From NCBI GenBank assembly GCA_029891345.1, contig CM057009.1:233235178-233299177 (forward strand): 64,000 bases of DNA. Direction: 5' to 3'. Below are positions 1-31,606 of the stretch, piece after piece (the stretch's first letter is position 1; each line of letters starts with the position of its first letter). The translations under genes and the position numbers were made by a program. The notes beneath the pieces are model-generated. The model was not told the origin of the DNA. It saw nothing but the letters and a program-made list of their open reading frames with translations, and made no database searches. Source of the DNA: Dryococelus australis. Taxonomy: Eukaryota > Arthropoda > Insecta > Phasmatodea > Phasmatidae.

Positions 1-566
1 TCTTGTTAAAGTCGATTGAATTATTTGAGGTTTTACTTGCATTGTGTCTAGATCGATCAAGGAGACTACTTGCAAATGCGGAATATGCATCGAATTGAAA
101 CTGGACTGTTCTACCGGCTGCGATTTAAAATGTAGTGTATTCGCACTAATCGAATACACAACTTTTATACGTTTGGTTGGCTGGTGTACTTTTCCATTTG
201 GAAAATCAAACGTGAAATTTTCTAGACTGTTGATAAAAGAGGATTTATGGTATCTAAGTTACTCGATTCGTTTTTGTGCCCATGGTATCGTTTGTGCACG
301 AATTTGCGACTGATGCCCGCTTCTTGTACGTGCCCGTAATTTTCAAAATGGTAATTGCCAATCACAGGAACTTTCACTTTCAGTAAATCTTGAACCTTGT
401 GGCTATCGGATAGGTCAGAATTAAACACCAAAACTATTTTCAACACTGTCAAACCCATATCGAATGATTTAATGACGTTTCGAATTGCTGCCTGAGGATC
501 GAAACTGAAAGCTTGGATTTGGTTTTTGGAAAGTAAAACATTTTCCCCGACGATTTCATCAGCCAT
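1..566 (-). pseudogene. viral hypothetical protein, copy A of a tandem pair, cut by left edge
   Basis: I do not recognise the family. The reading starts at an ATG (564-566) with MADEIVGE and runs about 114 residues to a stop at 222; an overlapping frame then stays open from about 300 to position 1, so a frameshift splits the gene and its 3' end lies outside the window. It is clearly related to the next gene (start at 1615): both begin with an EIVGE motif, share KSFD(M/L)GLTV near residue 35, and end this part with an aligned ENF-F-F block. The pair therefore arose by tandem duplication. It lies on the minus strand like its neighbour. Function unknown; confidence concerns existence as an old viral gene, not role. 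Confidence 0.55.
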
Positions 567-596
567 TTGATCAAATAATCATAACATATACAGGCG

Positions 597-1615
597 TTAG
601 TAACTTATGTTGTATTTATGTTTAACATCGTCAAGTTTAAAATCCAGTGTTGGAAGTTGTTCTTTTAGAACTATGTATTCAGCACCGCCACTACTTTTGA
701 AAGTTTCCGAATTTAGTGTCTGTTCGATGAAAGCTCGTAGTTCACAAACACCGCCATACAAACCAATCATTGCCTGTTCGGAAATATTTGGTGTTTCAAC
801 AAAAAGCATCCACTCATCGACTCTTGTCGAAGTTTTGCCGTGTGGGCGGCCTGATTTTCTAGAGTACCACTCTTGTACTTTTTCTAAAATATATTGTTCG
901 TTAGGTATATAATTTGGGATAAGTTGGTTTTGGTATAATAATGGTTGTTGTTGCTCGTCAAGTATGTAATTAATAGTTTGTTGTTCTTGCTTTGGTAATT
1001 CTAGTTTTTTATTGGGTATGTAATTATTAGGTACAAAATTTGATGTGTATTTGTTTTGTTCTGGTAATTGCTGTTGTTCTTGTACGAGATTCTCGAATGA
1101 ATAGTTGTTTGAAATATCTGATTGAAACACCATGTCCATTTCGAAAACAGCAGGTGAGTCGATTGCCAATAGTTCATTTAAATATACGGGTGATGGTTCA
1201 CTATCGGGGTTCTTTCATTTTGTGGTAGAGTATTTTGACGTTTTACTTCACACACATTGTTGGCGTTGTTGTGAAAGTAGAATGCGAAATTCTCGTTGCC
1301 CATGAATTGAAGATGCTGTTCGTATTGGTAGATATCATGCGTTCGCCTCACCAATTTTGTTCGACAAGCACCAGCCAACATGTAGTCGTAATTATTGACT
1401 GATTGATCCAACACTGGTGGAATATTCTTAAACAAATATCGCACATTATCAATATCGGTTTTATTTAAATTTATGAGGAAATTATTCTTTATAACTGTTA
1501 GGCCTAAATCGAAACTTTTAAGGATGTTGTGATTCGCTAAATCAACATCAAATGTGTGAATACGGATCTGGTCGTTATAAATAAAAACACTTTCACCGAC
1601 TATTTCACCAGACAT
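597..1615 (-). pseudogene. viral hypothetical protein, copy B with Gln-rich middle, frameshifted
   Basis: Two overlapping minus-strand readings probably form one gene. The first (1178-1615, start MSGEIVGES at a true ATG) matches copy A over about 100 residues. The second (597-1169) has no stop between it and about 1215, so a single frameshift near 1200 would join them into about 340 residues. The second part has a low-complexity stretch rich in Gln, Asn and Pro (roughly its residues 25-95) followed by a compact, mixed-composition C-terminal domain of about 95 residues. An ATAAG motif lies 10 bases upstream of the start. No homology recognised. A Gln-rich linker between two folded parts would fit a virion scaffold or regulatory protein, but that is guesswork. 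Confidence 0.55.
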
Positions 1616-1625
1616 GATTTTTGCT

Positions 1626-1629
1626 CTTA
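1626..1629 (-). promoter_or_regulatory. TAAG late-promoter-like motif
   Basis: ATAAG on the minus strand, 10 bases upstream of the ATG at 1613-1615. The (A/G/T)TAAG motif is the late promoter core read by the baculovirus-type viral RNA polymerase. Similar motifs precede several other starts in this viral region. Confidence 0.35.
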
Positions 1630-1912
1630 TATTAGGTATTATGGTAGCTTATAATTTTGAACATTTGTTATCCCAACAGGAAGTATTTGAACTTGTCGAG
1701 TGTAACGAATATGACGATGAAAATATATCTGATGACAAGAGCACAGAACTCAAACACATGGGTTAGATACATATACAAAATATATAAATTAAAAAAAACT
1801 TGTAAAAAATATTTTTTTTAAATAATTTTTTTATGAAACTTGAATGTTTGCATATAAATTAGATACATCGCAAGTTTTTTTGTTTATCAGTTCGAGAAAA
1901 AACGTAAACTTT
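1630..1912. other. AT-rich intergenic spacer
   Basis: No open frame of note. The stretch is very AT-rich with A and T runs around 1785-1830, and separates two minus-strand genes of the viral block. Confidence 0.5.
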
Positions 1913-2740: not shown

Positions 2741-2767
2741 CATTTCTGTTGCTGTTGTTGGTATTGC

Positions 2768-4270
2768 ATGACGATAAAAAAATCTTATAAGTACTGCGGA
2801 AAACCCAGATTTAAAAAAATGAATGAAAATGTTTGCACCATTCTAGTAGCCGGTCTGATTCAGTTTACATGTGGGCCGAAAATCGCATTTCGCGAACACA
2901 CAAACGTGGAGAAATTATCTCAAATGCTGAACAGTGCGAAATTTTTGTCATCTTCGCTAGAAAAAAACACAAATCACTTCGCAGAAAGGCGACAAACTTT
3001 TTAATGATTTAGAGACTATGCTCTTTGGTTTAGGTGAAGTATTTTCAAAAATATTAATGGAGCGGAAATCTACCCTGGCTGAAAATCAAAACGCTATTTA
3101 CATATTGTGGGTGTGCTTGGTACATAATTAGCAATTTTCAGATGCGCGCTACTATCGAAAAATAACCTCGAATATTTAACGGCCCAGTTTGAAAATTTAT
3201 TTCTTGGTTACTTTCGGAATCCCAAGAATGCGAGCGATTTATTTGGAGGAGAATCAAATTCGGAGATTACATCCGAGCTGGACGCCTGGCGAATAGAACC
3301 CCTATTTTCTTTCAAGGATGCACGTGGCCACGACCAGTTGAAAGCAGAACTCAAAATTTTAATTTATATATAGGTGTTTAACCCACGATTCAAAATTATA
3401 ATGTTTTTCGGTCCTCCAGGTATGGGTAAGAATACACTGGCTCTTGCAATTGTGTCCGAATGGAAACCAAAACTATACCAACTCAACATCAGGCAGTTAT
3501 CCTCGCCCACCATCGGTGAACCGAATTGCAAATTAGCTAATTTGTTCAAAATGACCATCGAGAACCAGAACCAGATATTCGTGATATTTCTGGACGAAAT
3601 CGATGAGATAGTTTCGCAAAACTTGATAATTCCACCCCATTTACGAAGTGTGGCAATTACCCTAAAAACCGGTCTCGAAAGAGGTGTTCAAATGAAAAAT
3701 AATGTTTTAATTGTAGCTGTAACCAATTACAAAAAAATCAATAAGACCTACAATCCTTGACCGAACCCATGTCTTTTACCTGATCAACTTTCCCTCGGAG
3801 GAAGAATGTCGTGGCACATTAATTGGCCTCTTGCAGTTGTTTAAGAATCACCATCTTAAGGACTGGGATGAAGAATACTAACGTTGGATATTTGATAACA
3901 TTTCTCTACCACAATACCTCACTTTTGGAAATGTCATGGTCATACATGATATGGCGAGATTGGAAAACTTTAAAGACGAGCCATTCTCGTTCGCGATCGC
4001 CAATCAATCTCTCTCGTACAGATACCAAAGGTAAATTACATTAGTCAACACATTTTGTATGAAGCGGAGCTAAAAATACTCGAAAATGCAAACGAAACGA
4101 CGGTGTTGACTTCGCGTCTCGAAATTATATACGAACTATGCCGGAACAGCATCCTGACAAACGATCGAATTTTCTTCAGGCCGAACTTCGATTATTTCAA
4201 CAAATCAATTGCTAATACAAGAACAAAGAATGAAGAAGAATATAACAAATTTCAAGATGACAAGAAGTAA
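2768..4270 (+). pseudogene. AAA+ ATPase, endogenous viral, broken
   Basis: AAA+ ATPases use ATP hydrolysis to remodel or unfold protein complexes. The motifs appear in order: a conserved lead-in FKDARGHDQLKAELK just upstream of the P-loop (about 3315-3360), Walker A GPPGMGKN (3410-3433), Walker B VIFLDEID (about 3579-3602), sensor-1 like VLIVAVTN (about 3706-3729), an ILDR segment marking the arginine-finger region (about 3755), and a C-terminal lid-like part to 4270. The first ATG is at 2768. There is a TAG between lead-in and P-loop, a frameshift near 3750, and further stops. The Walker A Thr/Ser is Asn here, which would impair Mg-ATP binding. Arrangement is like single-domain FtsH/proteasome-type AAA proteins. 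It sits between viral gene remnants. It might instead be a host gene fragment, though neighbours and decay pattern favour the virus. Confidence 0.75.
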
Positions 4271-4283
4271 AAAACAAACAATT

Positions 4284-5561: not shown

Positions 5562-6261
5562 ACTCTTTATAAATAAGAACTAATGAAAAAAATGGGCCAA
5601 ATCTTTTCGATAAATTTCGAAGAAGAGTACATGAATATGATAAAATCGAAATGCTCTGAACTTCCGAAAACTTGAGTGGATGACAAATCAGCGACTTGAT
5701 GAGTTGTGCATTGCGACAGACATCTTTATTCGAAACAAGCAGATATTCGACACATCTCATACATATGTCAATTATGTCAACATTGTAGATTGCTGGACAA
5801 AATTAAAATTTAAATTGTTGAGTGTTTACCTTCAGAGATTCAACGAGATTAGTAACGTTTACTTTGGCGACAAACTGCAAGAGTTTTTTTAATTCGAGGA
5901 AACGTTGATGAAACAACTTAGGGACGCACTCACGGACAAAAATATGGGAATATGCAAACTTGTCAACAAGAATTGAATGCGAGATATCAAAAATGTGTTG
6001 AAAGTCTGGCATGTTCAATTCGAGATTGGTCAATAAATTTACATTAATGGTAATTAATATCCCGCTAGCCATCTTGGTGAAGAGCGAAAGTATCGGTTTA
6101 CCATTTGGCATTATGCGTGCAAACCGCTCGATTATACGATAAGTTACCAAAATATTTGCGAGTAATTTGAAATGCCGATCGGTTAAATAGGGTATCTGGG
6201 ACAAGATTTCGTACACATCAAACAGCTTGAGTATGGGCTTCCCATTGTCCGCGCTCGTCAT
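5554..6261 (-). pseudogene. viral hypothetical helical protein, one in-frame stop
   Basis: Minus-strand frame from ATG at 6259-6261 to 5554, about 235 codons, broken by one TAA near 5803. The predicted protein is rich in Leu, Ile, Phe and hydrophobic helices without one clear membrane span, and contains two nearby copies of the short motif GKPIL. An ATAAG motif ends 5 bases upstream of the ATG, so this start was preferred over the GTG just before it. It overlaps the following gene by 8 bases and follows the small membrane protein gene ending at 6279. No homology recognised. Confidence 0.5.
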
Positions 6262-6266
6262 TTCCA

Positions 6267-6270
6267 CTTA
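6267..6270 (-). promoter_or_regulatory. TAAG late-promoter-like motif
   Basis: ATAAG on the minus strand, 5 bases upstream of the ATG at 6259-6261. It decides the choice of that ATG. Confidence 0.4.
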
Positions 6271-6278
6271 TCTTTCTT

Positions 6279-6661
6279 TTACTCTTTAAACACAACCAAA
6301 AAAACAAGTATTATGCAGGTGGCAAAACCCAAAATAATGACCCAACCGATAAAAATTAATCCATAATACAAATACCGAAATATCTTTTTCGTATAGTCGA
6401 ATACACCAATGCCAAAAGCCACAACATTCTCCACATCTTTGCCTAATATATCGGCGATCGCATCCATCCACGCAGCATCGACACAATGGTAATCCAAATT
6501 GATGTCGGTCACTGGAGGATCGTTTCGGACACTGTCACAATGAACACACGCAACGTCACCATCCGCTACAAACCTTCGTTAGAAGTAACCACTTGGAATT
6601 TCAAATGCAATAATATGTGTTGCATCGCTTCGGTGTCAATTTCATTTTTTATATTACCCAT
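6279..6661 (-). pseudogene. small viral membrane protein, N-myristoylation motif and tail anchor
   Basis: Starts at ATG 6659-6661 with MGNIKN, a glycine-2 motif compatible with N-myristoylation. After about 30 residues a frameshift near 6545 is needed to enter the frame ending at 6279. That frame carries two Cys residues (ACVHC), a further YHC, and ends with a strongly hydrophobic segment of about 25 residues (LIFIGWVIILGFATC onwards) followed by VVFKE, a tail-type membrane anchor. A short, possibly acylated protein with cysteines and a C-terminal anchor resembles virion envelope or fusion-complex proteins of large DNA viruses in architecture only. Intact length would be about 125 residues. 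No sequence family recognised. Confidence 0.5.
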
Positions 6662-7310: not shown

Positions 7311-7318
7311 TGAAATTT

Positions 7319-9160: not shown

Positions 9161-9629
9161 TATTTAATAAATAAAATAGTTTAATATCGAAACACTAATG
9201 AGTTTATCGATTGTGCACACTATTTCTTTTTCAGTGTTGCTCAATCTGGTCGGAGAATGTTTTCAGATTTATGTAGTAGTATCAAATTTCACAAAGCTTA
9301 TGACTCGAATAAAGGAAATGACCCGCGTTTATATCTAAGAATTAAAAAAAATACAAAAAAATAATTAGATTATAAAAAAATATTTAAAAAAACAACCATG
9401 TATGAATGATGAGGTCATGAGTCCAAACCTTCAGATGAGTAGGATAGGCATGACATCACACAGTATTGGTTCCAAGTCGATGTAAAGTTTATGACATTAC
9501 ATTATCCTAAATTACATTCACTTTAGAGTTACAAGATAAACTTCGAATTTTAATTAGTTTTATAGAAACTAATGAATAAGTTTGATTAGTTTTGTGTGAT
9601 TTTGTCAGAGCACTCCATGAGTGGCATCC
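9161..9629. other. non-coding spacer with small duplicated block
   Basis: No gene. Around 9298-9319 a 22-base block repeats exactly sequence at 8932-8953 inside the upstream membrane-protein gene (both contain GACTCGAATAAAGGAAA). The minus-strand translation around both copies reads SFIRVI, so this looks like a small fragment duplication of the neighbouring viral gene. Confidence 0.45.
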
Positions 9630-10100
9630 CCCCAGACCTAATTCCAAAAACCAATCACATTGCAGCATTTCATTTCCCCTCCCTTCCACTCATTTCAGTT
9701 TGTCTTTATGGCAGAGAGATGTGGTAAAAAGCATTCAGTCGACAGCAAGAGCTGGGCAGAGCAACATCAACCTTCCCTCTCTCCAGAATAGAAAAGAAAT
9801 AAGGTAAGAATAAATAGGTAAATTAATTAATCTATATATAATATATAATATACAATATATACTATACTATATTATATATAGTATATATTAATTAACTTAC
9901 ATTTTTGTTCTTACCTTATTTCTCTTCTATTCTGGAGAGAAGGAAGGTCGATGTTGCTCTGTACAGCTCTGGCTATCGACTGAAGTCTTTTTTCTGGATC
10001 TCTCCACCATATAGGCAAACTGGAATGAGGGGAAGGGAGGCAGAAATTAAATGCTGCAATGTAATTGGTTGTTGAAGGTAGGAGTGGGGGAAACCAACAA
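9630..10100. repeat. foldback / MITE-like inverted repeat
   Basis: Two long imperfect inverted arms, about 9630-9838 and 9893-10100, flank an AT-rich centre (9838-9892, almost only A and T). Matching blocks include ATTGCAGCATTT (left) against AAATGCTGCAAT (right), a shared block around AGAGCAACATC / GATGTTGCTCT, and CCAGAATAGAAAAGAAATAAGG against its reverse complement at about 9913-9934. It encodes nothing. It interrupts a viral intergenic region and is most simply a non-autonomous DNA transposon of host origin; a viral hairpin origin is a less likely alternative. Confidence 0.75.
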
Positions 10101-10174
10101 CCAATTAGAGTAGACCACGATTATTGTTTTTTATAGGTGGGTAGTTTGGTTTGTTGGGGGGGGGGGTGTGATTG

Positions 10175-10178
10175 TAAG
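10175..10178 (+). promoter_or_regulatory. TAAG late-promoter-like motif
   Basis: GTAAG 10 bases upstream of the ATG at 10189 that begins the membrane-anchored gene. Confidence 0.3.
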
Positions 10179-10188
10179 TTTGCATGCA

Positions 10189-12560
10189 ATGAATAAGATG
10201 TATTTTTTCAGTGGTTTTTTCGATAAACTTCTTCAATATATTTTAAGTAAAAAATTACACTTTTTGGTGATTGTAGTTTATATTATAGTAATAATTTGTT
10301 TGTTCTTGCAACTTGAAAGTGCTTTGCCTTCAGTCTTTGCAAAGTTCAAACGACATTGTTCAAATTTCAGATTACTGGTTTTCGATATATTGAAATTTGA
10401 AAATTAAAATAATGAATGTTCAAGTGATAATTTGATCTAATGCGATTCTAAATCACTCACCGCTTGTTTAAACTCAAAAGACCATAGATCCATGTGCCAT
10501 CATTTTTATACTGATGTCACTTTAATAGATCTCAAAACCAGTTTTATTAAAATAATTCCCTGAATCAAAGAGCCAGGTAAGGGATATAGCATGTACTTGG
10601 AAGATAGAGGCCGACGAACTTGCATGGCCAAGAATGGCGGACAATAGATGCATACCTAGGATGGTAATGATAAGTACTTTTGGATTTTAGGTTGTCAATA
10701 TCCGAAAATTTTAATTTCTGCACATTTGTACGCCAATTGCACAATATTTTCAGGTTGTCCATTCAATTGAAAGACTACAAACGCCAACGATCCGACACAA
10801 TGAAATTCGTTTGAGGGAATTACCTGCAAATGTGATTCCTGCACCAGTTGATATCCTTTGGTAATGACGGACCTTTATGCACAATACCAACATATTTCGA
10901 GGCTACACATGATGATTTAATTGATTTCGTACCAATCAGATTTGATTATTTAGGTGCAAAATTCAAATCCCTATCCATAGACATTCGACAACAAAAATTA
11001 CCAGATCCTTGCAAAATTGATGATTGTCTGGCGAAAGGATTCTTAGCAATAAGGTTGGATCGCGAAACTGGAAAGGCATTGTTGAATGTTACTTGTACAA
11101 TTAATGTTACATCCCCATCACTTTTGAGCATGATTACCTTCTCAAAAATAATGGTTGATTACAGAATGGATTCGTTAAAGTTTCAGATTCACAATCTTCT
11201 TTATTGGTTAGCGAAACACATACCATCCAAAATAATTTATCATACATACCTTTAATTTGTTATGCTTTCAAAGTTGAAGAGATAAACAGACTAATAGATT
11301 TAGAGTTTTTAAGAATTCCTAGTTATCCTTTTGTCACTTAAACAAGATCCTTATTGTTCCTGGTATTTTTCTACCATGCTCCTACAGAAGACCCCAATTA
11401 TCCACCCATCGATGAATCGCCTGAAATTGTGGATGTAAGACCTATATTCGTGCGCTACGAATTCGATAATTTAGTCAATACCACTGTACCCAATATTTAG
11501 AGATCCCATTTTACATTTTGTGGCATATGGCCATTTAGAACCAAAAAAATTCCTACATGAGGTGAAATTATTTATATGCTAAATTCTCGAGATCTCGATT
11601 ATCTATATTGGAAAAATTTATCTCAATATTACCACGAAAATTGCATTGAACAAGTTGACGAAGAACATCTCAACAAATGTGATTTCAAAACATATTTCAT
11701 AACCCCGATGTTGACATGTCCCAATGGAAACAATCATCTAACATCACAAATGCTCATCCAAAAAATACAGGAGTATTTATTCATGACATGGCTAAAAATA
11801 TCGCCTACCCGATATCTTTGAATGAGAATCTCGTTAACAAGACTCGTGCATTAGTTCCTAAATACTCTCTCGAAACATTTCAGTTCAGATACACTCCCGA
11901 TGTATATCTTAATTGCGACGTTGTCTATGATGATATAGTAAAGCTCGATGAAGGATTTTTCCAGGATATCAATGGACAATGTGAATTATAGGCTTTGACT
12001 GAAAAATCTCAATTCAATCCTTATGAAATATTATCCCACAACAAAGTCAAATACCACACGAATTTTCGTTTTTAATAAGCCAACCATTCTAGTCATGAAC
12101 ATTGAAAATTCGCTCCTGTATGTACTTTCTACTTGAAAAAAATACGCCATTGATAACTCTGGTTAATTTTAAAAACGATAACTGGGACTATGTTTTACCG
12201 AAACGTTCTCTAAAGTTCCACCAACTCATGAAAGTACAAAAAATTTTACAGAATCACATTTTATTTCAAAATTGGAAAAAACAAAAAACACTCGCATTAA
12301 TTTTCTCACAATTCTTGCCTGCATATTCAAAAAACGAAATCAATAAAACTCTCATGTTGTCAGCATCTCAAGACCACCTTTACGTAAACCAAATATACAC
12401 CTTGAATCCCTTGATTAATTCGTTGACGAAACATATTGGAAGGAAAAATTAACTAGAAGGCAAATACAACTATAGACTATTTGCAACAAATATGTCTACT
12501 CGAAGTGGTTTGGATATCCTAATGCCTTACATTCGAGAACTCGATGCGGAAACAAACTGA
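10189..12560 (+). pseudogene. large viral protein with N-terminal membrane anchor, heavily broken
   Basis: Starts at ATG 10189 (MNKMYFFSGF). The first 80 residues include a single strong transmembrane segment (LHFLVIVVYIIVIICLFLQL). After a damaged stretch, open blocks follow in shifting frames: about 10690-10860, 10848-11255, 11380-11560, 11576-11990, 12102-12540. The ectodomain has scattered cysteines (PLCTIP, PDPCKIDDCLAKG, NVTC, LTCPNG, LNCD). Total length would be near 790 residues. One anchor plus a long Cys-containing ectodomain is the architecture of PIF-1 or PIF-8/VP91 in Naldaviricetes, but I cannot confirm either by motif. The blocks may also belong to two genes. At least five frame changes show it is dead. 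Confidence 0.45.
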
Positions 12561-17800: not shown

Positions 17801-18164
17801 TTCAGATGGGGCTTAATCTCGCTTTGTTGTATTTTCTAAATAAATTATAATCGACGTTGCAGGCATCTGACTTGTGAGTCTCGCACAATCCACCAATCAA
17901 CAACTGTTCACTAACTGGTGTGTTTGCACTGCATCGTTCGTTGTTCAAGTAACAAATAGGCGTCAATTTCATATCGACGAAACTGTCACAACCGTTACTG
18001 AGGTTAAGTTTTTGATGAACGTAAATAAGTGGATAATATCGATTAATTTCATTTGATTGATTGTGATTAATGGTATTATTTGATTAATGTGTACTGATAT
18101 TCTAAAATATATTCGAACTGCCCTGAGCTTGAAGTTGACTCTGTGATTTCATTTTTGTTATTTA

Positions 18165-18165
18165 C

Positions 18166-18200
<35 letters not shown>
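18165..18200. repeat. (TA)n(CA)n microsatellite
   Basis: A TA dinucleotide run followed by ten CA units (18181-18200). It lies 30 bases before the first recognisable PIF-0 codons and may have replaced or disrupted the original 5' end of that gene. Such runs are typical of animal genomes and show host-type mutation inside the viral block. Confidence 0.9.
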
Positions 18201-18231
18201 TAAGATTTCCATTTTCACTGGACCAACAAAC

Positions 18232-20270
18232 TTGGATCATTCAACTGCTTTGAGAAATGTTTTTGAAAGACAAAAAATATTAACTTATAACAAATACTTG
18301 CTGCGAGTGCCGCAAATATTTTCTCATGTATACGTAGAAATTCGGCAAGATGTAGAGTTACAAAAGCAAACTTGGATTTTTTTGATTATTGCTATCAGGT
18401 GCATCTTAAAGGTGGAAAATGATTCTGCGATGCATCTCGATGCAATCTGCATTATCCACAGGGAAAAACATGCACACATCGAGATGTCCCCAAAATATTC
18501 AAGAGTGGTAATTCAGATGTGATTGCGTGCCAAGGAGCATGTTTTCCAACCAAAGATTCTGAATCGAAATATCACGGATCAAATAACTATTGGAGCAACC
18601 GCTGCGATGCATGTATGTTGGTTCATCAAGAAGCCTACCTGTTGGGAATAGATGTTTATTGGTGCGAAAAAGAAGGCACGATTATTCCGCACGTAAACAA
18701 AATAGGAACACGTTTCGATGTCGATTCTTCGCCGTATGTGAGAGATGGGTGATGAAACAATACACTTTCGTCTAAACTCGTATTATTGCGATAATTTTTC
18801 ATGTCTCTGGCGGGTGACAAATGCACAAACCATTAAGATAATAGAACTATAAGCTTTTTCATAGGAAATTTCTTATACATGATTATCAAATATACTTTCG
18901 TGGGATTGGCTCATGGAATCGATCAGTACGATGTAAAGAGACCACAAGTACCACCAACGGGATAAATGCCCGATTATGTCGCGGAATGGAATAACTTCGT
19001 CAATCACGAGGCGTTCTGCATAAATCCAGACATTAAACTCAGCGACATTGACATCACATAATAAACACCGAGACATTTATTTTGGACCACAGAGTATGGG
19101 GGATTGGGTAGGCTTGTGGAACCTTTGATAGTGACCCACGATGTCGAATACATAGTTTCTGATAAAGATACTCGGGTTCGAATAGGACTGCTAGCCGATT
19201 TGGTGCCATACCACTTGAAATATATAGATAACGGTAAAAGTCAAATCGACGAATATCAAATGCTCGGTTTAATGGATGGTTTTCCGACCAAATATCCCAT
19301 ATGGTTTATCCAATACAGAAGATATTTCCGACATAATTGCCGATATTATAACCTCTTGCATCCAAGGATTGGGTAGTAACGAGTTTCTACTGCAATTATT
19401 CGGTGAGGTCGGTCTGAATATGGTTCTCAAGACCCTAGTCATACACATCGGACCCACAATGATCGAAACGGGTGCAAAGATCTTGAATTGTCAGTTGGGA
19501 ATTTATTTATTCAGATCCTTGACGATAGAATTTGTTACGAGAGCTGTGATATAGACTGCTTTGAAAATGGTAGGATATGCCGTTAGAACATTTGCTGCAG
19601 TTTCTCTTTCTTGGGTACCCATACTTGATGTTGTATTGATCATAACTGCAGTCACCGATGTATTTATGACCATATTCGATCCATTCAACTTGCAAAACCT
19701 ACTAGGTCAAGATTACGTAGATGGTGTATCAAAGCTGGAATTGGAATTAAACAAAAGATTTGGGGTTTTCGAACGATGGAATATACGCCGATAATGTTCG
19801 TGATGATGTGGAAGAACGTGCACGAATGAGTTGTCGATTTAGCGAATCATGTTTCTGTCTAACCATTTTCTATCGATAATTATGCCGACACCGGTAAATT
19901 AGCGGCCTTTAAAAAAAAGATTTTATATTAAACCCACCTATTACGGGTATTCATCCTACTAAAGTAGTAAAAGATGACGATTTTAAAACTTGATTGCAAT
20001 TTCGTTTACAATACCTACTGGCCCTCAAAATCAACTCGAATGGATCTCATATCGATTGGAACAATATGTGCGGTAATGATGATGATACGATGTTGTCAAA
20101 TCAATTGAAAACCTTTTTGTGCACAAAATCCAGATCAAGTTTTGGACTTTGCGATCGATAGAGGATTGTATTTGCTGGGGGTTTCGATACTAATCTTGTG
20201 AATAACTGCATTTTTACCAATAAAACAATTCATTTGTTTATTGTATCAGTTATTTTATGGCGACTTTTAA
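18232..20270 (+). pseudogene. pif-0: per os infectivity factor 0 (PIF-0/P74), endogenous viral, broken
   Basis: PIF-0 is a virion envelope protein of Naldaviricetes, part of the entry complex needed for oral infection of midgut cells. The remnant keeps the family's domain order over about 680 codons, close to the usual length. N-terminal region 18232-18522 (LRVPQIFSHVYVEIR); Cys-rich block 18519-18752 (CQGACFPTKDS, NRCDACMLVHQEAY); central block 18885-19060 (GLAHGIDQYDVKRPQVPP, CINPDIKLSDIDI); C-terminal hydrophobic region 19276-19794 with LGSNEFLLQLFGEVGLNM and the hallmark IFDPFNLQNLLGQDY after a membrane segment; and a tail near 20010-20270 (LKINSNGSHIDWNNMC). At least five frame changes and several stops make it non-functional. 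The start codon is lost (first codons follow a microsatellite). This is the strongest evidence for the viral identity of the left half. Confidence 0.85.
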
Positions 20271-21129: not shown

Positions 21130-24100
21130 TATTACTGTTATTGAGTGCCTTCGAGCACAACACAACTTACCTCCTCATCAAAAAGGTCAAAATTACAGTT
21201 TTCGTTCACCCGAAAATGGTTTTTAAAGTGAAAGTGTAGAATATCTTTTAAATCATTGTCGTTTTCATACACATATAATTTTATGTGTAGCGTGTGGTCG
21301 TAAAGTTTTTTTTTCCCTGGCTTGATGGTTAAAAATTATGTAGTAAAATTTATTTTCATTATCTATGTACTCTATACGGGGTGCTAAAATAACCTTTTTA
21401 CCCGAATGTACCAAATAGATAAAAGGGTATATTTTTTTAAGTTTTTATATTTGAGTTTCCTCTTCTATTATTCGTATTGGCTTTGTTTCTTTCAAATTAA
21501 AATATACTTTCGGGCGAATATTTTTATTGTTGTATTTCGATTTAGAATACACACACTGTAGAATTATTATGTTTTGCACGAATATTTACCCAAAGAATTC
21601 CTAAAGGTGGTTCATATTCCTCAGACTCCCAGCGTTCAAACCACAATGGATGGTCTATCATCCACGATATTAAAATTGGGAAAGAGATTGAAAGAATTGT
21701 AACAAGCACACATCTGACTCGTTTTCGCCGCCCTGATCAACTCTTGGTTGAATGTGTCGAGATTACTAGTTGCGTATAAATTCTAAGAATATTTTATGGA
21801 TATTGCGTTGTTAAAATAGTATATCCTTTTAAACATGCGAGCCTATTTGTGCCGCAAAATTTTGTATGCGAAATATGAATAACATTTTGACCAGTAGGTA
21901 GTATGGGGTTTCTTGTGGAATCCACATACACCATAATTTTATCATTTATACCATAAAAACCATTGATGTAAATGCTATCTCAACTATTTCCTCTCTCAAT
22001 ATCTTTAATTATTTTACTCGAACCATATACGCATAAATAATTCAACATTTTATCATGATGATGGATTTCGTCGTAATATGCATTTAATTTATATTTCTTC
22101 AGATCGGTAATGCTGGCAAATACAAACTTGTTATGGAAAGCAGTACGATAATTTTTCATAAGTCGCAATATGGTATTGAAAGAAGCTATCGAAATATCAT
22201 GTATAAAGTAAATCATAATCGTTAGTATCTCATTGTCCAAATCTGTATTCAGCTGTAAATTAAACTGGTTCGAACTTTGTTAATCACCACAATATATGTA
22301 TGTCACATCCCCATGGTTATTGTTATGGGTATTTGAGGTATTAAAATTGAACAACCCGCAATTCTCTTCAATAAATTGTATATTATCTACCTACGATTCA
22401 GCAGTAAATTTCAAGTTTTTGGTATCTACAACCAATTTTAATTCTTCGCACATGCTTTGTGGAATGAGATTTTTGTATTTGCACCATCCTCGAATTGCAA
22501 ACAATCGTTTAGCACTTCGGGGGGAGCATTTGAAATTGTGACGCGGTTCTTTAAATATTTTCAACGATTTGGAAACCGTTAATTTCGTTAAATAAATTGG
22601 CTAGATCGTTTTTGAAAATGATACCACTATCTCCCATGAATGAATCGGTAATCTTCACCACTAGTGTGTATTTTCCATCAGGTATGGCTTCCAAGTACTT
22701 GCTCAAATAATACAAATCAGATAAAATTATTTTCAATAGTACTATTCGATGAAAATAGCGTTCGTGATTGTCATACGTGTTGTCAATGGTTATTTCTCCT
22801 GGATCTTTATCTTCGTAAATGGCAGAAATCCCCGGAATACCAACAAAGGATAAGAAGTTTACGACATAATGTCGACCATCAATCACATTTTACATATATT
22901 CAGCATTTGATGGAAATTGTTCGTTCACTGAAGGTTTATATAAAAATTCCGTGACCATAAAATCATCATTGTTGTTGGCATTCACATATTTTTTAGGGTT
23001 TTCCTTAATGGAAAATCGCAGTGTTTTATTCGACCTGGTCGCGTGGACAATCGCTTCGATTTTGTTTGTGTCGTAGAGCAGGGATGTGTTTGTATCTCCT
23101 ATATAAATGTATTGATACGTGGAACTATTGGATGTGGTGCGCATTATATACGAAACACCGGTAAGTTGTGTATTTAGTTGGTTTTCATGGAAATTATCGT
23201 TTATCATAGCCGTCATAACAAATATGGGCGTGTATTTGGTCCATTGGCTTTTAAGCGGGGCCAAATTCGTCACCAAAACGCGGACAAATTGTTCGGAAAC
23301 ATTACGAAAAAAGGTTAAAATTAAAGAACGCGTAAGTGTTGCAAAGTAATTGATTAACGCAACATTTGAGTTTAATGAATTTCGCATTTTATTGATAGCT
23401 ACGATCCACCAACTTTAATTCGTGATTGTTTACTATGTATCAATTCAAATGTACTGGTGAATAAACAGCTTCCCCCAAGTATTCAAACACACCCTCTTGA
23501 ATAATTTGCTCGTAGTTATTTGATTCGAACGAAAATATAACATTTGCCGTACTTACATCCAAATCCGAAATTTTTGCCTCGTTCATAATTAATTTGGAAA
23601 AACCAACTACTAATGTATTAGTGGAAAGAGCGGAGGAAGTAGAAGAGGACGAGGATGACGTGTAGGAAAAATGGAAACTTTGATCGTCATTTAGTCGCTT
23701 AGTATCATACATATTTTTTTGGATGGCATATCATAAAATAATATGTGTTTGAAAGAACAAACATTTCGTGCTGATATTGTGCATTTGAAATATACTTTTT
23801 GATCCTGGGATTGTCCATCAGAGATACTGAATTGCTTTCGACTTGAAACAAAAAGGTAATGTTGTACTTGTTGACCAATTTTAACTTATCCAGAATGGGA
23901 ATCTGAGCCACGTTGAGTGCTAGTGATGTAGAACTATCGATCAATACTTTGACCAAATCGTTATTCGGTGTCACCACTACACTATTCTTTAAGTTATTCG
24001 GCACAACGGAAACGAAATTATTTTGTAGCCTGATATACTCGACGGGAAGGTTTATCAAAGTAGTATAGGATTTATAAAACTGAGACATGTATTTGGAAAA

Positions 24101-24384
24101 CAACAAGTGCTTGTTTGATAGGTGTTGTAAATTATTAATGGTTTGTGCCGCCAACCAGTCATTGTCTTTATCGAGAACGGAAATTGACAATTTTCAGTAT
24201 TGAGTTGTAAGTGAATCTCTTTATCCGTGTATTCAAACGTCTTCGCCACGATCGCTTTGTTAGTAAATGTTATGATATTTGGTGTTCGAATTTTACCCTT
24301 GTTATATGACTTGACCACCGCCGTAGTTTGAGCATCCAACCCGTAGGTAAAATCACTATCGATTTGGCTGATGGTGGACATCAA
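21130..24384 (-). pseudogene. very large viral protein (over 1,000 codons), fragmented
   Basis: Almost the entire 3.25 kb reads as protein on the minus strand in successive blocks: 24384-24190 (ATG start, MMSTISQIDSDF), 24190-23705, 23712-23440, 23387-22890 and 22886-22551 (these two in the same frame), 22240-21980, about 21970-21730, 21720-21560, 21540-21470 and 21460-21140, ending with EEVSCVVLEGTQ. Composition is globular with many Asn, Thr and Val; one Ser run (about 23640-23670) is coded by a simple repeat. No P-loop, membrane anchor or polymerase motif was seen. It may be one giant structural protein or two adjacent genes with the split near 22500. Not assigned to a named core gene. Confidence 0.5.
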
Positions 24385-24389
24385 TAATT

Positions 24390-25242
24390 GTAAAGTCTTT
24401 GAATTTGATAATCGGATTATTTATGTTAGTGTAGTTCATCACGAAAATTATATATCCTTCAAAATAGTGTTTTACACATTTACCCGATTTAGAGCCAACA
24501 TCCTGCATCAACCTGGTTAAATATGCAGTCTCGCGAGGTTGTAAGTTTTTCGCAAGTATCGCAAATCCGGTTTTACTACTATTGAGTACTTCGTCAAAAC
24601 TATTAATTATTTTGGCAAGGTCTTTAAACGGATTCGATTCGCAACCATTATGTAATTATTGTATCTATCCAATATATCGGAATTATTAAATCTCAAACGA
24701 TGTTGAGAAACTTTAAGTGACATCGGGTAGATTTAGAAATATTTGTCTATTTTCTGATTTGATTTCCGCCAAGTCGATAATATTCTCGAAAGAAATGGTA
24801 TCTGCTTTATAGGAAAATCAAATGGTTCAGCACAATTTTTGTTTAAAGCACAAATAATGTGGTGTTGGTCATTTACCAATAGGTCAATGTGCCAACGTTT
24901 AAAAGTCGCATAATTTATTTCCAAATTGTGTAAACATTGTGATATAATTAAACATTTTTGTTTAATATGCTTAATCCCATATCCCTTTTTTCTCGCCTCT
25001 TCTTGATATAAATTTTCCGGAAGTTTTCCCTCAAAGTTAAAAAAAAAAAGTATAGTCATTCAATGATGGTCAATTTTGTAAACTGTAAATAAAGTTTTTA
25101 TAATCGGTTAATTTGATCGTGTTAATAAGAAAAAAAATTTCGAATATTCATTTGTTAGACTTTTCGAAATTGTAAAAGGCCCTTTTTTTAAATTGGCACC
25201 ACCTAAATTGTTATTGTTTTGAAAACTCTGCGAACTTCCCAT
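24390..25242 (-). pseudogene. viral protein with N-myristoylation motif, broken
   Basis: Starts at a true ATG (25240-25242) with MGSSQSFQN, matching the N-myristoylation consensus (Gly2, Ser6). About 45 codons on, frames shift and the main block 24733-25059 follows (contains GKLPENLYQEEARKK and KRWHIDLLVNDQHH), then a last block 24460-24660 (contains LQPRETAYLTRLMQDVG) whose frame runs across the start of the next gene. Total about 280 residues. ATAAG lies 15 bases upstream of the ATG. Lipid-modified proteins are frequent in virion envelopes and tegument-like layers, which is the inferred location. Family unknown. Confidence 0.5.
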
Positions 25243-25257
25243 ATTTTAATTAAGATT

Positions 25258-25261: not shown

Positions 25262-25262
25262 T

Positions 25263-25608: not shown

Positions 25609-27290
25609 TAGAGATGTGTTGAGTAGTAATGAAATGTGTTTACGGGCGCAACAAATTCCACATGAAAATCCCGAGGACAAGTTAATTACTCTTGTATATT
25701 CATCGAATTCCGAACCGAAGGCTGTGGCAACAACGACAAATTTTTCGTCGGTAAAGTTAACTCTTTCAATGGAATATGAACTTGTTAAAACAACTTTATT
25801 TACATGTGTCGATGAGTAAGATGGCGAGTTGGCTACACTTAAATACATAACGTTAAATGATCCTGCCGGCAGTGGGAAATCTACATTATTGAATATTTTT
25901 CTCGAAGAAAAAAAATACAGAGGTTTTTACACGACCCCGCAACACATCCTATTGCGAAATATTTGTCGACAGATGAAACTAGCAAATGGTTTGATGTTAT
26001 CAAGTCTACTAATTCGGTTGACTAAATTTAGTCACTACGAATATTTGAAATTCATGCAGTTCTTGCCACTGATTGATATTGACAAAATATCTACAGTGGT
26101 ACAAGAATTGAGCAAGTTTTGCGATATCGGATACAACACGGCTTCGTTTTTTTGTGGAATGCAACAACGACTATTCAGTTTCCTTCGACGCACCCATTGT
26201 TTTATTTGTTGATGAATACAGTATGATCAGTGCATGTCTAGCAAAATTTATAGTTGAATTTTTCCAAATGGTGAAGCAAACTTTTAGTAATATATTGATT
26301 TATTTTGTGGTGATTGGTAGCCGTTTGTGACAAACAAACCCAATGACATATCGTTTATTTGCGAACTATGCGGTGATAATTTGTTTCCTTACCACACAGT
26401 TTAGGAACATGGAGTCGACATACCAGGAATTTCTGACAACTATAAATACCGCTCCGAATTGGAAGAAACTGCTTACACGTCATTTAGGAGTACACAATCG
26501 TAACATGAGTTGTTTCACTCTGGGTTTTGAGTATCCGGTAGAGTTGTTGGCAACTGTGATTGAGACGAAAAACAAAACTGCTTCACGTTTGGTACTCAAC
26601 GCAAAATAGATTATGAACTGGGCGCAGGAAAACTTGGTGGTTTCCGGATTAGTTTTCTTTGCCTTTTCAAATATCGAATCACAGTATTTCAATTCAAGCA
26701 TGTCGATTGCTGTTCTCGCTCAAATAAAAAAATTTCTAAAGGAATGTAGCTGCCGGTTTGATGTGACTGAGATGGACAAACAGAGTATTTTCAATCATCG
26801 TCCCCGGTTCACTCCGATTTTCTTTTCAAACGATAAAAAAATTGATAACAGAGAAGAATGAAAACCGCAAACCCGTCTACTTGCCACTAATCGTTGGTGT
26901 TCCCTACCGCAGTTTAATTCATGGCCATGGAGTATGCATCAGTGAAGTTTTACATTATTTGGGAAAAGTTGGAGATGAAATACTCATGTGTGATTAGGAG
27001 AATAACAATCTTTTTCTGATACTAAAATGTTTCTTCAAGACGAATCTCTATACGATATATAAATTTGCCTTTCAACACACATGTGAAGATACTAAAAACA
27101 GTAAACTCTTATTATATAGTTTCCCGCTTCAAATGACTTATGGAAATACAGTTCAGAGCGGTATAGGATAAACAATTGATAATTACATTTATGCTAATTT
27201 GACAGGATGTATGCTAGAATAAATTAATGTAGTCTTATCCAGAACAACAAGCAAGAATAAATTGAAATTAATTCAAGTGTAAATACTTTT
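25609..27290 (+). pseudogene. superfamily 1 helicase (Pif1/RecD type), endogenous viral
   Basis: SF1 helicases unwind DNA 5' to 3' using ATP. The motif series is present in order: motif I DPAGSGKST (about 25859-25885), motif II FVDEYSM (about 26208-26228; Pif1-type DExSM), motif III region IGSRL-QTNP (about 26313-26342), an arginine-containing LTTQFRN (about 26390-26410), motif V SFPLQMTYGNTVQSG (about 27118-27162) and motif VI VVLSRTTSKNKL (about 27230-27265). An upstream block from about 25609 is in frame with motif I, separated by one TAA. Frameshifts lie near 26170, 26330 and 26860, and several stops occur. Length about 560 codons. Baculo- and nudiviruses carry an accessory helicase of this kind (helicase-2), so a viral origin fits the neighbours. 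A cellular or transposon Pif1 (Helitron) is less likely: no Rep domain is visible. Confidence 0.8.
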
Positions 27291-27429: not shown

Positions 27430-27433
27430 TAAG
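27430..27433 (+). promoter_or_regulatory. TAAG late-promoter-like motif with TATA context
   Basis: TATATAAG ends 3 bases before the ATG at 27437. In baculovirus-type late genes transcription starts within TAAG, giving very short leaders as here. Confidence 0.4.
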
Positions 27434-27436
27434 ACG

Positions 27437-28530
27437 ATGAATAAAAAACAGCAAATATACGCATTTACCATTATATGATCCATTTTATTAATTGGAATTT
27501 TAGGGTTTGTTTTATGGAAATTTAAAAGTAAAATTAAAGGGTCGGTGAATACACAATTTGGTGCGAGTACATCTTTTGGAGGTACTGCTAATTCAGGAGC
27601 TGCAGCTGCCGGTCATTTAGTAAATCAATATTACACTATGAAAAAGCAATCATTCCTTTGTGATTTTATCTTTACAATTAGAGAGTTGCTAAAGTTAAAA
27701 GCATGGAGAAAATTAAATAAAAACATGACTCATTCTCAATTTATGGAATCAGTTGAATTTTTAAAACTAAATCCACCACTGTACTTGGATTTTTATATCT
27801 GACAATCGTCATAAATAACAAATTTTTTTTACGATTCTGTATTGAGGTTAAAAGGCGTAAATGTATATCCGTTAATGACTGAACGTGATAAACTCGCTTC
27901 TGAAATAAAATGTAATATTTCGCAATTAACTCATCGTTTAAATGTTCTATATCTAAAGCAGTATACTATCCTAAAAAAATTGTTTGGGTCCGCACTTTAC
28001 CCGCGAAAATTACAAAATATTTTTGAGAGACGAACAACATGCAGAAAATGAAAATATTAAACAGTTGACAAAATTACAATACTAAGATAATTCCCTATCT
28101 TTTCAAATCGAGGAGTTTAGGGAAAAAAAAGGTGGTTCTGTTCGACACAAGTACGAAAAAATATTCAATCATGTGAAAAAATAATAATTTCTTTTCAAAT
28201 TACCTCGAAGACGTATTGGCTGATGTAGAGACATTATGAGACGGCGTTCCAAAGACAAACGATCCCCAAAAAATACATAAATCTATGGCACCTCTTATCG
28301 ATAACTTGAGTTATTCTCAAATTTTAGAAATAATGTCTGCATTCCTCACTTACCTGCCAGTAAAATACATTGAAAACGCCATTCAAACATCTGCGCTGCA
28401 AGTATTTTATGGTATGCCCACAATCATTTGCATTCTGAGCTCGGTCGTCATTGCACCCGATGGACAGCTATACAACCGACAATCGTTCTATGTAATTTTG
28501 AGGTTTTTACTATTGTTTGCCAATATATAG
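27437..28530 (+). pseudogene. viral envelope-type protein with N- and C-terminal hydrophobic segments
   Basis: ATG at 27437 (MNKKQQIYAF). A signal-anchor follows (SILLIGILGFVLW) with one in-frame TGA inside it, then a Gly/Ala/Ser-rich linker (GASTSFGGTANSGAAAAG). A long helical region, with TERDKLASEI near 27880 and EEFREKKGG near 28105, contains several stops and at least two frame changes. From about 28190 the frame is open except for a TGA near 28247 and ends with hydrophobic segments (FYGMPTIICILSSVVIAP and ILRFLLLFANI) at 28530. Total about 360 codons. Two-ended hydrophobicity and size would suit an occluded-virion envelope protein such as PIF-5, but no decisive motif was seen. Next gene starts 9 bases later. 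Confidence 0.5.
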
Positions 28531-28531
28531 A

Positions 28532-28535
28532 TAAG
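28532..28535 (+). promoter_or_regulatory. TAAG late-promoter-like motif
   Basis: ATAAG 4 bases upstream of the ATG at 28540, immediately after the stop of the preceding gene. Confidence 0.4.
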
Positions 28536-28539
28536 AACT

Positions 28540-29520: not shown

Positions 29521-29778
29521 TTTTTTTTTTTTTACACTTTGCTCATTTAATTGATAAGAACGTGCTAATAAATCCTAGTAATTTTTTTGCATCTGAAATT
29601 AATCGTGTATGGCAAAGTAAAATAAAACAGATCTTTTCATCCGATTTATAAAGGTCGGTAAAACTCACAATGCCATATGTAGAAACTTACATTCCTTCAC
29701 AGCAAATAAAAAATATATATATAAATCTTACATTCCTTCTCAGCCAATACAAAAATAACAAAACTCGCACAGCGCGTG
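29521..29778. other. AT-rich spacer
   Basis: No gene. It contains a T run (29520-29533), and two similar segments with CTTACATTCCTTC followed by A-rich sequence (about 29688 and 29727), a small tandem duplication of about 40 bases. Confidence 0.5.
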
Positions 29779-29786
29779 TATAAAAA
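29779..29786 (+). promoter_or_regulatory. TATA box
   Basis: TATAAAAA about 60 bases upstream of the first in-frame ATG (29846) of the ankyrin gene. Position and sequence suit a host-RNA-polymerase-II (early) promoter, unlike the TAAG sites before other genes here. Confidence 0.5.
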
Positions 29787-29836
29787 CGAGACGATTGAAC
29801 CAAGGGATCACACTCGCGCTCTGCAAACTACAGAGT

Positions 29837-29962
29837 GAAGACACCATGAGAGCCAGCAGAGACACCATGAGAACCAGTGAAGATGCCATCAGAGCCAATG
29901 AAGACACCATCAGAGCCAGTGAAGACACCATCAGACCAAGTGAAGACACCATGAGAGTCAGT
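29837..29962 (+). repeat. six 21-bp in-frame coding repeats
   Basis: Exactly six 21-bp units, each coding seven residues of the form (E/R)D(T/A)(M/I)R-x-(S/N): EDTMRAS, RDTMRTS, EDAIRAN, EDTIRAS, EDTIRPS, EDTMRVS. The heptad length and charge pattern could form a short coiled coil or an unstructured N-terminal extension. Variation between units shows the array is not newly formed. Confidence 0.9.
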
Positions 29963-30710
29963 GAAGACAAACAAGACTTGTTTGACGAAAAGGAACTGTC
30001 AATGGTGAGTTTAGCTGCCTATCGTGGTTGGCTATATGAACTTGTACGCATGAAGGAGATGAAATTAAATTTTGTAAAAAAGGATTTTGGTGGTAAATTT
30101 CCAATTCAGCGAGCAGCCGTGGCGGGGAATTTGGAAATTGTAAAATTTCTAATAGAAGAAGGTGTCAACATTTTAGCAAAAGATTTAGCGGGTATAACCA
30201 TATTGGGGTATGGCAATTATTATTTCGAAAATTGGCCCGCACTTGTGTATTTTGTGCAAACAATAGACGTGGTAATGAAAGGGATTCACAAAGACTGGAA
30301 ATTGTTGGTGAAAGCGGCTAATGCAGATCGTGAAAACATTGTGCGTTACTTAATTGAAAATTGTTTGGGTGAACCGGTTTTCTTAGAAAAGGATTTGTTA
30401 CTGCATTTCGCGTCCCAAGACGGCATCGCGGAAGGGGTAGATTATCTGCTACAAAACGAAGCAAATGTTTTATAAGTGGGACGTAATAACATTACAGTAT
30501 TACACGAAGCTGTTTCTAGTAAAAAATATATCGACAGTTTTGTGTGTTTTGGACAATGTAAAAAAGGCATTAAATAATGACAAGGAAAAATTTGAAGATT
30601 TCGTAAATTCTGAGGATTTGTATGGTTGAGCTGCAATTATGTGGGATACGAACGAATAAAATTTTTTGAAATTTTAATTGAACATGGTGCAAACCCTAAA
30701 CAAGACTAAA
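29846..30710 (+). pseudogene. ankyrin-repeat protein, viral-type
   Basis: Ankyrin repeats mediate protein binding. The first in-frame ATG is 29846 inside the heptad repeats; the frame is intact to 30475 (about 210 codons). After the repeats come SLAAYRGWLYELVRM, then FPIQRAAVAGNLEIVKFLIEEG (a clear ankyrin repeat), then KAANADRENIVRYLIEN and LLHFASQDGIAEGVDYLL. After the TAA at 30473-30475 the same theme continues in another frame (TVLHEAVSSKKY, then GAAIMWDTNE-like and LNMVQT) to about 30710, so the gene is truncated by a stop and frameshift. Ankyrin proteins are common in large DNA viruses of arthropods, where some act as IkB-like inhibitors of immune signalling; whether this one did is unknown. 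It has its own TATA box. It could alternatively be a host ankyrin gene fragment. Confidence 0.7.
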
Positions 30711-30904
30711 TGAAGCCAATGTCTTATTTATAGGTATACTAGTAGGTATCTATGCATATATTTTTTGAATGAAAATTCTCAAATGTTAACAAAAATGTAA
30801 ATAATATGTAAAAAAAAATTATATATATACATATATACTATAGAAAATATGAAATTCTGTTTTAATTTTTTTGTAAATAAACAATACATACAGGTTAATT
30901 ATAA
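30711..30904. other. AT-rich spacer
   Basis: No gene; convergent 3' ends of the ankyrin gene and the next minus-strand gene, with several AATAAA-like and TA-rich stretches. Confidence 0.4.
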
Positions 30905-31606
30905 TACAACATCAGAACCATATTTCTGATACTTTCTTTGATTTGTTTTTCTAAGATTATAACGAGTCTTTCGGGCTGTTTCTCGCTGTAATTCACAGCG
31001 AGAAATATCAGTCATCTTGGTTGGTTTAGGATTCTTTCTTCGATGGAGGGAGACATCTGTTGTTGGTATTTGTCTTGAAAGCTAACTTGGTGCTTGTTTT
31101 TGCTTCGCACGAGTGATGTTGGGTGCCAATTTGCTCTTTGTGCCTCTCTTTTGATGGACATCAGAAATTCTTTGAGGTCTCGACTGCTGGGACACGACTG
31201 TAGATCTGTGCCTTTGCGATCTTCGAACAGTTATGTTGCCAAAAAAAATATTATCCTCAAATATAATAATTACAATCACATTAGCAAAAGTAATTATAAT
31301 AATCAATCATAATTTCATAGATTCATTCAAAGAAGTTGTTGGTCCAAGGAAAGAATCGTTTGATGGTCCCAGGGCTGAATATGATAATGGGCCAGGGACT
31401 GAAGAGGTTGATGACTCATTATCTGTAGCCGAAGGCATCTCGTCCATTTCCTCCACATTCCCCATACCTGTTTCATCCTCCATTTGACTGGAACTCGAGG
31501 GAACAGTGGGTAAAAAATTCAGAAGACCGGTTATTGTTCCATATTGCTTATCTAAATCGCTCAAAAACCACTGTATTGCGTATCCAACAGATGCAAGTAC
31601 ACCCAT
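30905..31606 (-). pseudogene. viral membrane protein with basic C-terminal tail, two in-frame stops
   Basis: One minus-strand frame of 233 codons runs from ATG 31604-31606 to 30905, broken only by TGA near 31307 and TAG near 31082, with no frameshift. Order: MGVLAS (fits N-myristoylation), an amphipathic N-terminus, an acidic Ser/Glu-rich region (QMEDETGMGNVEEMDEM), a membrane span directly after the TGA (IIIITFANVIVIIIF), then about 110 residues extremely rich in Arg, Lys, Gln and Ser (VRRSQRHRST, RRKNPKPTKM, RKTRYNLRKTNQRK). Acid domain, single span and basic tail suggest a virion envelope protein whose tail contacts nucleic acid; that is inference. It is the rightmost viral-looking gene. 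Confidence 0.55.

Follow-up and report, generated by a model that had tools for sequence, protein, structure and literature searches.

Known fusions between large viruses and cut-and-paste transposons join a herpesvirus to piggyBac (PMC5601938) and one nimavirus lineage to Ginger2 (PMC10871703). Teratorn, found in medaka, is described as a piggyBac transposon fused with an alloherpesvirus (PMC5601938), and endogenous nimaviruses are reported to carry integrases, with a Ginger2-like DDE transposase and inverted termini in one lineage (PMC10871703). The AmFV/LGDV group is said to have related elements in ants (PMC12548425). The PIF genes are described as the signature genes of Naldaviricetes (PMC10271883). 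The window analysed here, 64,000 nt of Dryococelus australis (GCA_029891345.1, contig CM057009.1, 233,235,178-233,299,177, forward strand; positions below are those of the window unless a sample or contig is named), carries part of an element that descends from a Naldaviricetes-related virus and is endogenous and present in many copies. We consider it fairly probable that this viral DNA was mobilised between two Merlin-type transposons and spread as a giant composite transposon. The fuller claim, that a PIF-bearing virus and two Merlin/IS1595 units form a new giant composite of ~60-94 kb that reached many sites (possibly >100) by transposition, stands in our judgement at even chances.

The element's viral section is represented at 1..31528 by its right-hand portion, in the form of decayed gene pieces on both strands. 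Open pieces, counted from stop to stop within 1-31,700, number 117, 42, 21 and 10 at ≥70, 100, 120 and 150 aa, respectively, against means of 45.5, 6.9, 1.9 and 0.4 in 100 dinucleotide shuffles, and they are grouped in blocks on either strand, so the two-strand array of gene remnants proposed by the initial annotation is borne out. CpG observed/expected is 1.14 in the viral section and 0.58 in 33,400-64,000, and in samples taken leftward of the window it is again high (1.20 at 10 kb and 0.99 at 20 kb). Such CpG depletion of the flanking DNA is unlike ants and bees, for which reason an ant or bee source was set aside, and is one difference from the AmFV/LGDV group and its elements in ants. The profile search covered 104 of the 124 longer listed open pieces (98 of the 104 inside 1-31,700) and 156 shorter ones, and the only convincing families (one listing gives 25 of 63) were p74, AAA, ankyrins and the transposase. 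Neither pif2, pif5, DNA polymerase and p33 nor the Lefavirales markers lef-4, lef-8 and lef-9 occur among the families listed for these pieces (25 of 63 families in one listing). Eight pieces searched against viral contigs had no relatives there, three searched against a protein collection had none either, with E-value thresholds set at 10, 1e-6 and 1e-3, and Rfam and tRNA scans found nothing.

The viral assignment is carried by PIF genes. A PIF-0 (p74) remnant lies in several frames at 18139..20158 (+), where PF04583 (Baculo_p74) is matched at 19555-19791 (1.4e-5, 25.2 bits, cut-off 23, profile positions 89-136) and a second piece at 19994-20158 matches collinearly along the profile (8.1e-4, 19.5 bits, under the cut-off, positions 174-196); the N-terminal portion, 18139-18749, was assigned by eye and has no profile match. 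The presence of PIF-0 in the array, as first proposed, is thus confirmed, and the suggestion that other pif genes be sought by extending the contig leftwards was productive as well. Sample L036, taken from this contig ~23 kb before the window begins, has PIF-3 at 5867-6394 (-) (PF05006, 1.7e-9, 38.4 bits against a cut-off of 22.2), and a matrixin match (4.7e-13) lies 23 kb left of the window; the stretch with both recurs at 84% identity in another copy (sample L052). The array runs on beyond the left edge, where the CpG-rich samples and PIF-3 lie. Across the 3.4 Gb genome, p74 is matched in at least 145 places (the window's own p74 is outside those listed) and PIF-1 in at least 79 (best 5.1e-15), whereas none of 14 control genomes has a p74 match and none a PIF-1 match. 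The open pieces of the window itself yield no PIF-1 profile match, and the site at which a PIF-1 remnant would be expected, 10100..11700 (+), follows solely from its distance in other copies, such as that on C8, where the PIF-1 match (107317124) precedes the ankyrin copy (107336540) by 19.4 kb. PIF-0 in the window, PIF-3 farther along its contig and PIF-1 at other genomic sites, set against control genomes free of p74 and PIF-1, place the element with Naldaviricetes-related viruses, a class otherwise characterised by rod-shaped enveloped virions, a circular genome and replication in the nucleus.

The remaining genes allow some comparison with known naldaviruses. An AAA ATPase remnant in three pieces occupies 3128..4267 (+); its piece at 3374-3757 matches PF00004 (4e-17), and the outer pieces, assigned by eye, have no profile match. 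The relatives of this piece among solved structures (PDB) are cellular and CDC48-type. An SF1-helicase-like remnant at 25820..26997 (+) was recognised by motif order, with motifs I, II and the QFR-type motif following one another at 25868, 26202 and 26388, a series seen in 0 of 500 shuffles. The block has no significant profile match, and a stricter first-motif helicase pattern finds nothing within the window; the helicase of helicase-2 type named by the initial annotation is therefore not fully confirmed, having the ordered motifs in its favour but neither profiles nor the stricter pattern. Single-sequence fold models were poor (pLDDT 42 for the AAA piece and 52 for the helicase piece), and the p74 and helicase pieces gave chance matches or none against solved structures. 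Between the end of a minus-strand piece at 25,059 and the start of a plus-strand piece at 27,479, the helicase-like block has room for ~2.4 kb at most, whereas the nimavirus helicase is described as having 1,868-1,936 aa (PMC4506587); if the identification by motifs is right, this would speak against Nimaviridae. To its left, seven overlapping or adjacent minus-strand pieces at 22551..25059 may form a single large gene; tested one by one, they have no significant profile match. In gene content the element resembles the AmFV/LGDV group as described, which shares PIF-0, PIF-1, PIF-3, AAA ATPase and helicase-2, the last of these supported by motifs only in our case (PMC12548425); matrixins are likewise reported from AmFV (PMC4517127). 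Transposon ends are present here but go unreported in the available portions of the AmFV/LGDV descriptions (PMC12548425, PMC4517127).

A piece of an ankyrin-repeat protein that contains a 21-bp tandem repeat (29759..30472, +; Ank_2 1.9e-12) lies inside the stretch used for counting copies. This ankyrin end gave 41 match rows on 11 contigs, 40 of them besides the window, at 85-91% identity. Eight copies compared with one another are star-like, with a mean identity of 89.9% (0.887-0.909 across 28 pairs), and their differences fall almost evenly on codon positions 1, 2 and 3 (107/107/99). The left part of the copies varies through deletions or rearrangements. Within the viral array of the window a fold-back (MITE-like) repeat occupies 9629..10090, with arms 83% complementary and 3 CpG found where 15.6 are expected; relatives at 65-75% identity occur in sample L048 from a different contig. 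The copies and this repeat decide the most sceptical reading, in which a free virus contig was misjoined to host DNA and its frames were broken through sequencing error. The abrupt CpG shift towards the array's right edge would fit such a misjoin, but forty further match rows, dispersed over chromosome-sized contigs and decayed independently of one another, refute it, and the CpG-poor repeat of host type inside the array also speaks for integration. Moreover, same-frame neighbour pairs of pieces ≥70 aa number 12 in the array and 2 in the right part, which suggests stops within reading frames; a few such pairs could, however, be adjacent genes. A misjoined free viral contig, one of the outcomes under which the initial annotation would have failed, is thus given almost no credence; an endogenous Naldaviricetes-like virus in an animal chromosome, as then proposed, is supported by the three PIF genes and the dispersed decayed copies.

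On its right the element ends in a transposon unit of Merlin/IS1595 type, at 31529..33413, with an inverted terminal motif at both ends (31529, +, three mismatches; 33390-33413, -, one mismatch; 0 expected by chance). It contains 39-bp tandem repeats at 31682..32144 (+), which other copies have too, and an ISXO2-like (IS1595/Merlin) DDE transposase piece at 32381..32836 (-) that matches PF12762 (2.6e-11, 44.2 bits, cut-off 27). The transposase of the window is broken, and its unit is without ~0.7-1.05 kb of short repeats near the left end. Sixteen of the 20 further copies compared (7/7 and 9/13) have their right terminus at 33408-33423, within ten bases of 33,413; of the remaining four, two end inside the transposon and two have no hit above 250 bp. 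The right flanks of the first seven copies, when aligned, differ mutually and from the window. The boundary of 31606 in the initial annotation was accordingly wrong, as the comparison of copies places the terminus at 33,413. An earlier treatment of the transposase as an independent insertion, with a border at 34.4-34.8 kb judged from CpG content, was replaced by the same coordinate.

Left ends were located in two of the seven copies for which they were sought, one in one of seven ten-kb stretches and the other in one further sample, and the two inserts measure ~60 kb and ~94 kb. The insert at C17:236.84/236.90 Mb has the same transposon unit as the right end, complete with both termini, at its left, in direct orientation, and a perfect outer target duplication (8/8 bp, compared by eye); this left unit has its own inner end, whose flank is unlike the outer duplication (by eye). 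In the insert at C1:237.12/237.21 Mb the unit was followed at the left end for its initial ~1.1 kb, short of the transposase, and the outer duplication is 6/8 bp (by eye). One of the two outer duplications is imperfect and AT-rich. IS1595/Merlin transposons have terminal inverted repeats and a target duplication of 8-9 bp, and membership here is indicated by the ISXO2-like transposase, the terminal motif at both ends and the duplications of 8/8 and 6/8. We infer the pairing of left and right ends in each insert from orientation, CpG, the duplication and shared viral matches lying between the ends. The left end of the window's own copy was not found; a candidate at ~C17:233,208,000, suggested by CpG, was ruled out by another copy that is homologous to L036 from base 2. 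Assuming a length like that of the two measured inserts, the window's 33.4 kb would make up a third to half of this copy.

These ends also weigh on whether the element is an ordinary endogenous virus of a known lineage (nimavirus-, AmFV- or LGDV-like) that multiplied through re-infection or with an integrase of its own, while the transposon is an ancient insertion at the right end. Endogenous nimaviruses are Naldaviricetes reported at 22-477 copies in crustacean genomes with integrases of their own, and the AAA ATPase is given as one of their core genes (PMC10871703), while both this gene and helicase-2 are described in the AmFV/LGDV group (PMC12548425). The AAA ATPase gene is also shared with other naldaviruses. 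Endogenous nimaviruses differ from the element in that their complete genomes are given as ~268-579 kb (PMC10871703), the inserts here measuring ~60-94 kb, and in their type of transposase. An inserted transposon would leave shared viral DNA to its right, but homology stops at the transposon end in the 16 copies, the flanks of the seven aligned copies differ and the outer duplication encloses a whole insert. We therefore regard this explanation as distinctly unlikely. The outer duplication and the fixed right terminus would fit joint movement of the viral genes with the transposon ends.

A stronger competitor, doubtful but well short of dismissible, is that a circular virus carrying a Merlin-type transposon recombined homologously into resident transposons (Campbell-type). 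It predicts the same anatomy, with virus between direct units and an old target duplication outside, and a relative of the transposon unit at 71-74% identity in a sample taken 250 kb farther left shows that the transposon family has further members. Repeated entry by a living virus would, however, leave differences mainly at third codon positions, whereas those observed are equal at all three positions and the copies are star-like, and by eye the inner junctions are without the duplication expected from simple insertion into the virus. Under the composite-transposon reading that we favour, viral DNA would have become enclosed by two transposon copies, and the enclosed virus may then have spread as one giant unit, a putative transposase acting on the outermost ends. 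The star-like copies and their evenly distributed differences point to a burst from nearly identical progenitors followed by neutral decay. At arthropod rates of 2-4e-9 per site and year, the burst would date back roughly 12-25 million years.

So understood, the element would be like Teratorn as described in holding a large DNA virus within a cut-and-paste transposon, with terminal inverted repeats, target duplications and tens of copies, and unlike it in its virus class (PIF-bearing), its transposase superfamily (IS1595/Merlin) and its directly oriented transposon units at either end; six sequenced Teratorn copies are reported intact, whereas the copies compared here are decayed (PMC5601938). 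If true, this would be a third, independent virus-transposon combination, built, like the composite transposons of bacteria, around two transposon copies, and such fusion would be a general route for large viruses to become genomic parasites. With many copies within one chromosome-scale genome, transposition and recombination can be told apart directly, and the copies preserve, as fossils, a PIF-bearing lineage whose host has CpG-depleted DNA. Among minor matches, which were set aside, UL16 is weakly hit in a left-hand sample (0.0029), and pieces of the window give weak matches to a RING-type family (0.0034) and to DUF3915 (2e-4), the latter probably a GA repeat as judged by eye.

The initial annotation placed the end of the viral array at 31,606, however, the shared sequence goes on through the transposase to about 33,408-33,423 in 16 of 20 other copies. 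In seven of these, it continues beyond window position 31,587 into a run of short repeats (roughly 0.7-1.05 kb) absent from the window copy, homology then resumes at 31,573-31,577 and stops at 33,412-33,423, and the flanks beyond, compared for these seven, differ. Among 13 further copies, nine end at 33,408-33,420; in two, homology already stops at 32,283 and 32,617, and the remaining two have no hit above 250 bp. As homology runs through the ISXO2-like transposase (32381-32836; Pfam 2.6e-11) to a common end point, the transposase is part of the element and makes up its end. For the left ends, 10-kb stretches were fetched at the expected starts of seven other copies, with one copy sampled again further left (L070). 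The terminal motif stands at the start of homology in one of the seven stretches (L051) and in L070, followed in both by short repeats; the transposase region comes next in L051, oriented as it is at the right end, and the L070 sequence stops short of it. Outside the inserts studied, the Merlin-type unit has additional relatives or fragments at L035 (C17:232,985,000) and L051:5136-5280. Two inserts were bounded at both ends, each with a p74 and an ankyrin match in between. At C17:236,841,729-236,901,296, the 8 bases flanking the insert on its left are identical to the 8 flanking it on its right (by eye). The left unit of this insert also has an inner terminus; the sequence beside it does not correspond to the duplication, which is therefore a feature of the insert as a whole. 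At C1:237,117,516-237,211,108, the outer flanking bases agree at 6 of 8 (by eye), and samples from inside are CpG-rich (0.84-1.11) compared with 0.26-0.54 in the first four outside.

The ankyrin end (29,700-30,500) gave at least 41 match rows on 11 contigs, 40 of them besides the window at 85-91% identity; this is a lower bound (40 of 378 candidates scored), and two rows come from a single copy. At 15 or more of the 40 places, a p74 match precedes the ankyrin match by 7.4-10.9 kb on the same strand. Between the window and seven copies, the 28 pairwise identities span 0.887-0.909 (mean 0.899), and differences from the window in the ankyrin frame number 107/107/99 at codon positions 1/2/3. Judged from these alignments, the pattern is that of a star-like burst with neutral decay afterwards and not that of a diverging living virus.

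These comparisons show a right terminus common to the copies, a left transposon unit in one copy and the start of such a unit in another, a duplication at the outer flanks and a burst. The element is most likely a composite, in which two Merlin-type transposons would have enclosed viral DNA and transposase acting on the outer ends would have spread the whole insert. Recombination of a circular, transposon-carrying virus with resident transposons would yield an identical anatomy, however, it fits the codon-position pattern less well than the composite does and is the less likely reading. A composite element would work like Teratorn, though both the virus class and the transposase are different (PMC5601938). 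Within the class, nimaviruses with a Ginger2-like transposase come closest (PMC10871703). Gene content (AAA, helicase-2-like, matrixin, PIFs) is most like that of the AmFV/LGDV group, a likeness judged from gene lists. Among the matches listed in searches of open-licence papers, no PIF-bearing virus with Merlin-type ends was reported.

The array of gene remnants noted initially in the left half holds open pieces far above chance, with 117 of at least 70 aa in 1-31,700 vs. a mean of 45.5 in 100 dinucleotide shuffles, and 42 vs. 6.9 for at least 100 aa. The longest left piece is only 238 aa, therefore no large gene is intact. Counts in the right part (33,400-61,800) are 62 vs. 43.1 and 20 vs. 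6.9 expected from dinucleotide shuffles. Former coding is supported by purine bias at the first codon position (0.59 vs. 0.47-0.48 in 21 left pieces; 0.52 vs. 0.47-0.48 in 14 right pieces). Clear Pfam matches were few among the scanned window pieces (104 of 124 longer pieces, 98 within 1-31,700, and 156 shorter ones; 25 of 63 families listed for one batch), and include an AAA ATPase (3374-3757; 4e-17) and ankyrins (29759-30472; 1.9e-12). The proposed PIF-0 is borne out by two Baculo_p74 matches on a single strand and in profile order, one over the cut-off (19555-19791; 1.4e-5, profile 89-136) and one below (19994-20158; 8.1e-4, profile 174-196). The proposed helicase has as its sole support three motifs in order (0 of 500 shuffles), weak evidence because this looser pattern was adopted once a stricter version had found no match in the window. 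Two adjoining remnants at 225-1648 (-), with openings alike by eye, are apparently a tandem duplication; a profile search gave them no family match.

PIF genes are a signature of Naldaviricetes (PMC10271883), and the initial annotation proposed looking for further ones to the left. PIF-3 was found there on the same contig (L036, C17:233,206,000-233,215,500; 1.7e-9, 38.4 bits, cut-off 22.2), together with a matrixin (4.7e-13); matrixins are listed among AmFV genes (PMC4517127). Another copy (L052) carries more than half of this stretch at 84-85% identity. A weak herpesvirus UL16 match at L036:3509-3778 (-) (0.0029, below cut-off) is probably chance. Across the genome (3.4 Gb, 646 contigs), there are at least 145 PIF-0 matches (150 of 380 candidates scored; the 145 do not include the p74 of the window itself) and at least 79 PIF-1 matches (83 of 170 scored), and neither gene had a match in any of 14 control genomes. 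Many p74 matches extend to profile position 195-198 and many others stop near 157-170; more than one lineage of elements may be present. In six cases (by eye), a PIF-1 match precedes an ankyrin match on the same strand, three times by about 19.0-19.4 kb and once each by about 17.6, 15.3, and 8.5 kb. From these distances, PIF-1 is expected roughly at 10-12 kb of the window, where no profile match was found.

A misjoined free viral contig, raised initially as a possible refutation, is spoken against by a fold-back repeat within the array (9,629-10,090), which has relatives on another contig (L048) and probably represents a host repeat inserted there. It holds 3 CpG vs. 15.6 expected, and CpG o/e is 1.14 in the element vs. 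0.58 in the flank. A profile scan of 59 pieces from the right part gave no significant family. Several diverged repeat copies, direct and inverted and 72-77% identical, fill 34796-48000, and the viral array contains none of them. Cysteine-rich open pieces at 39097-39553, in a GC-richer and strongly CpG-poor stretch, may represent an old retroelement carrying a zinc finger.
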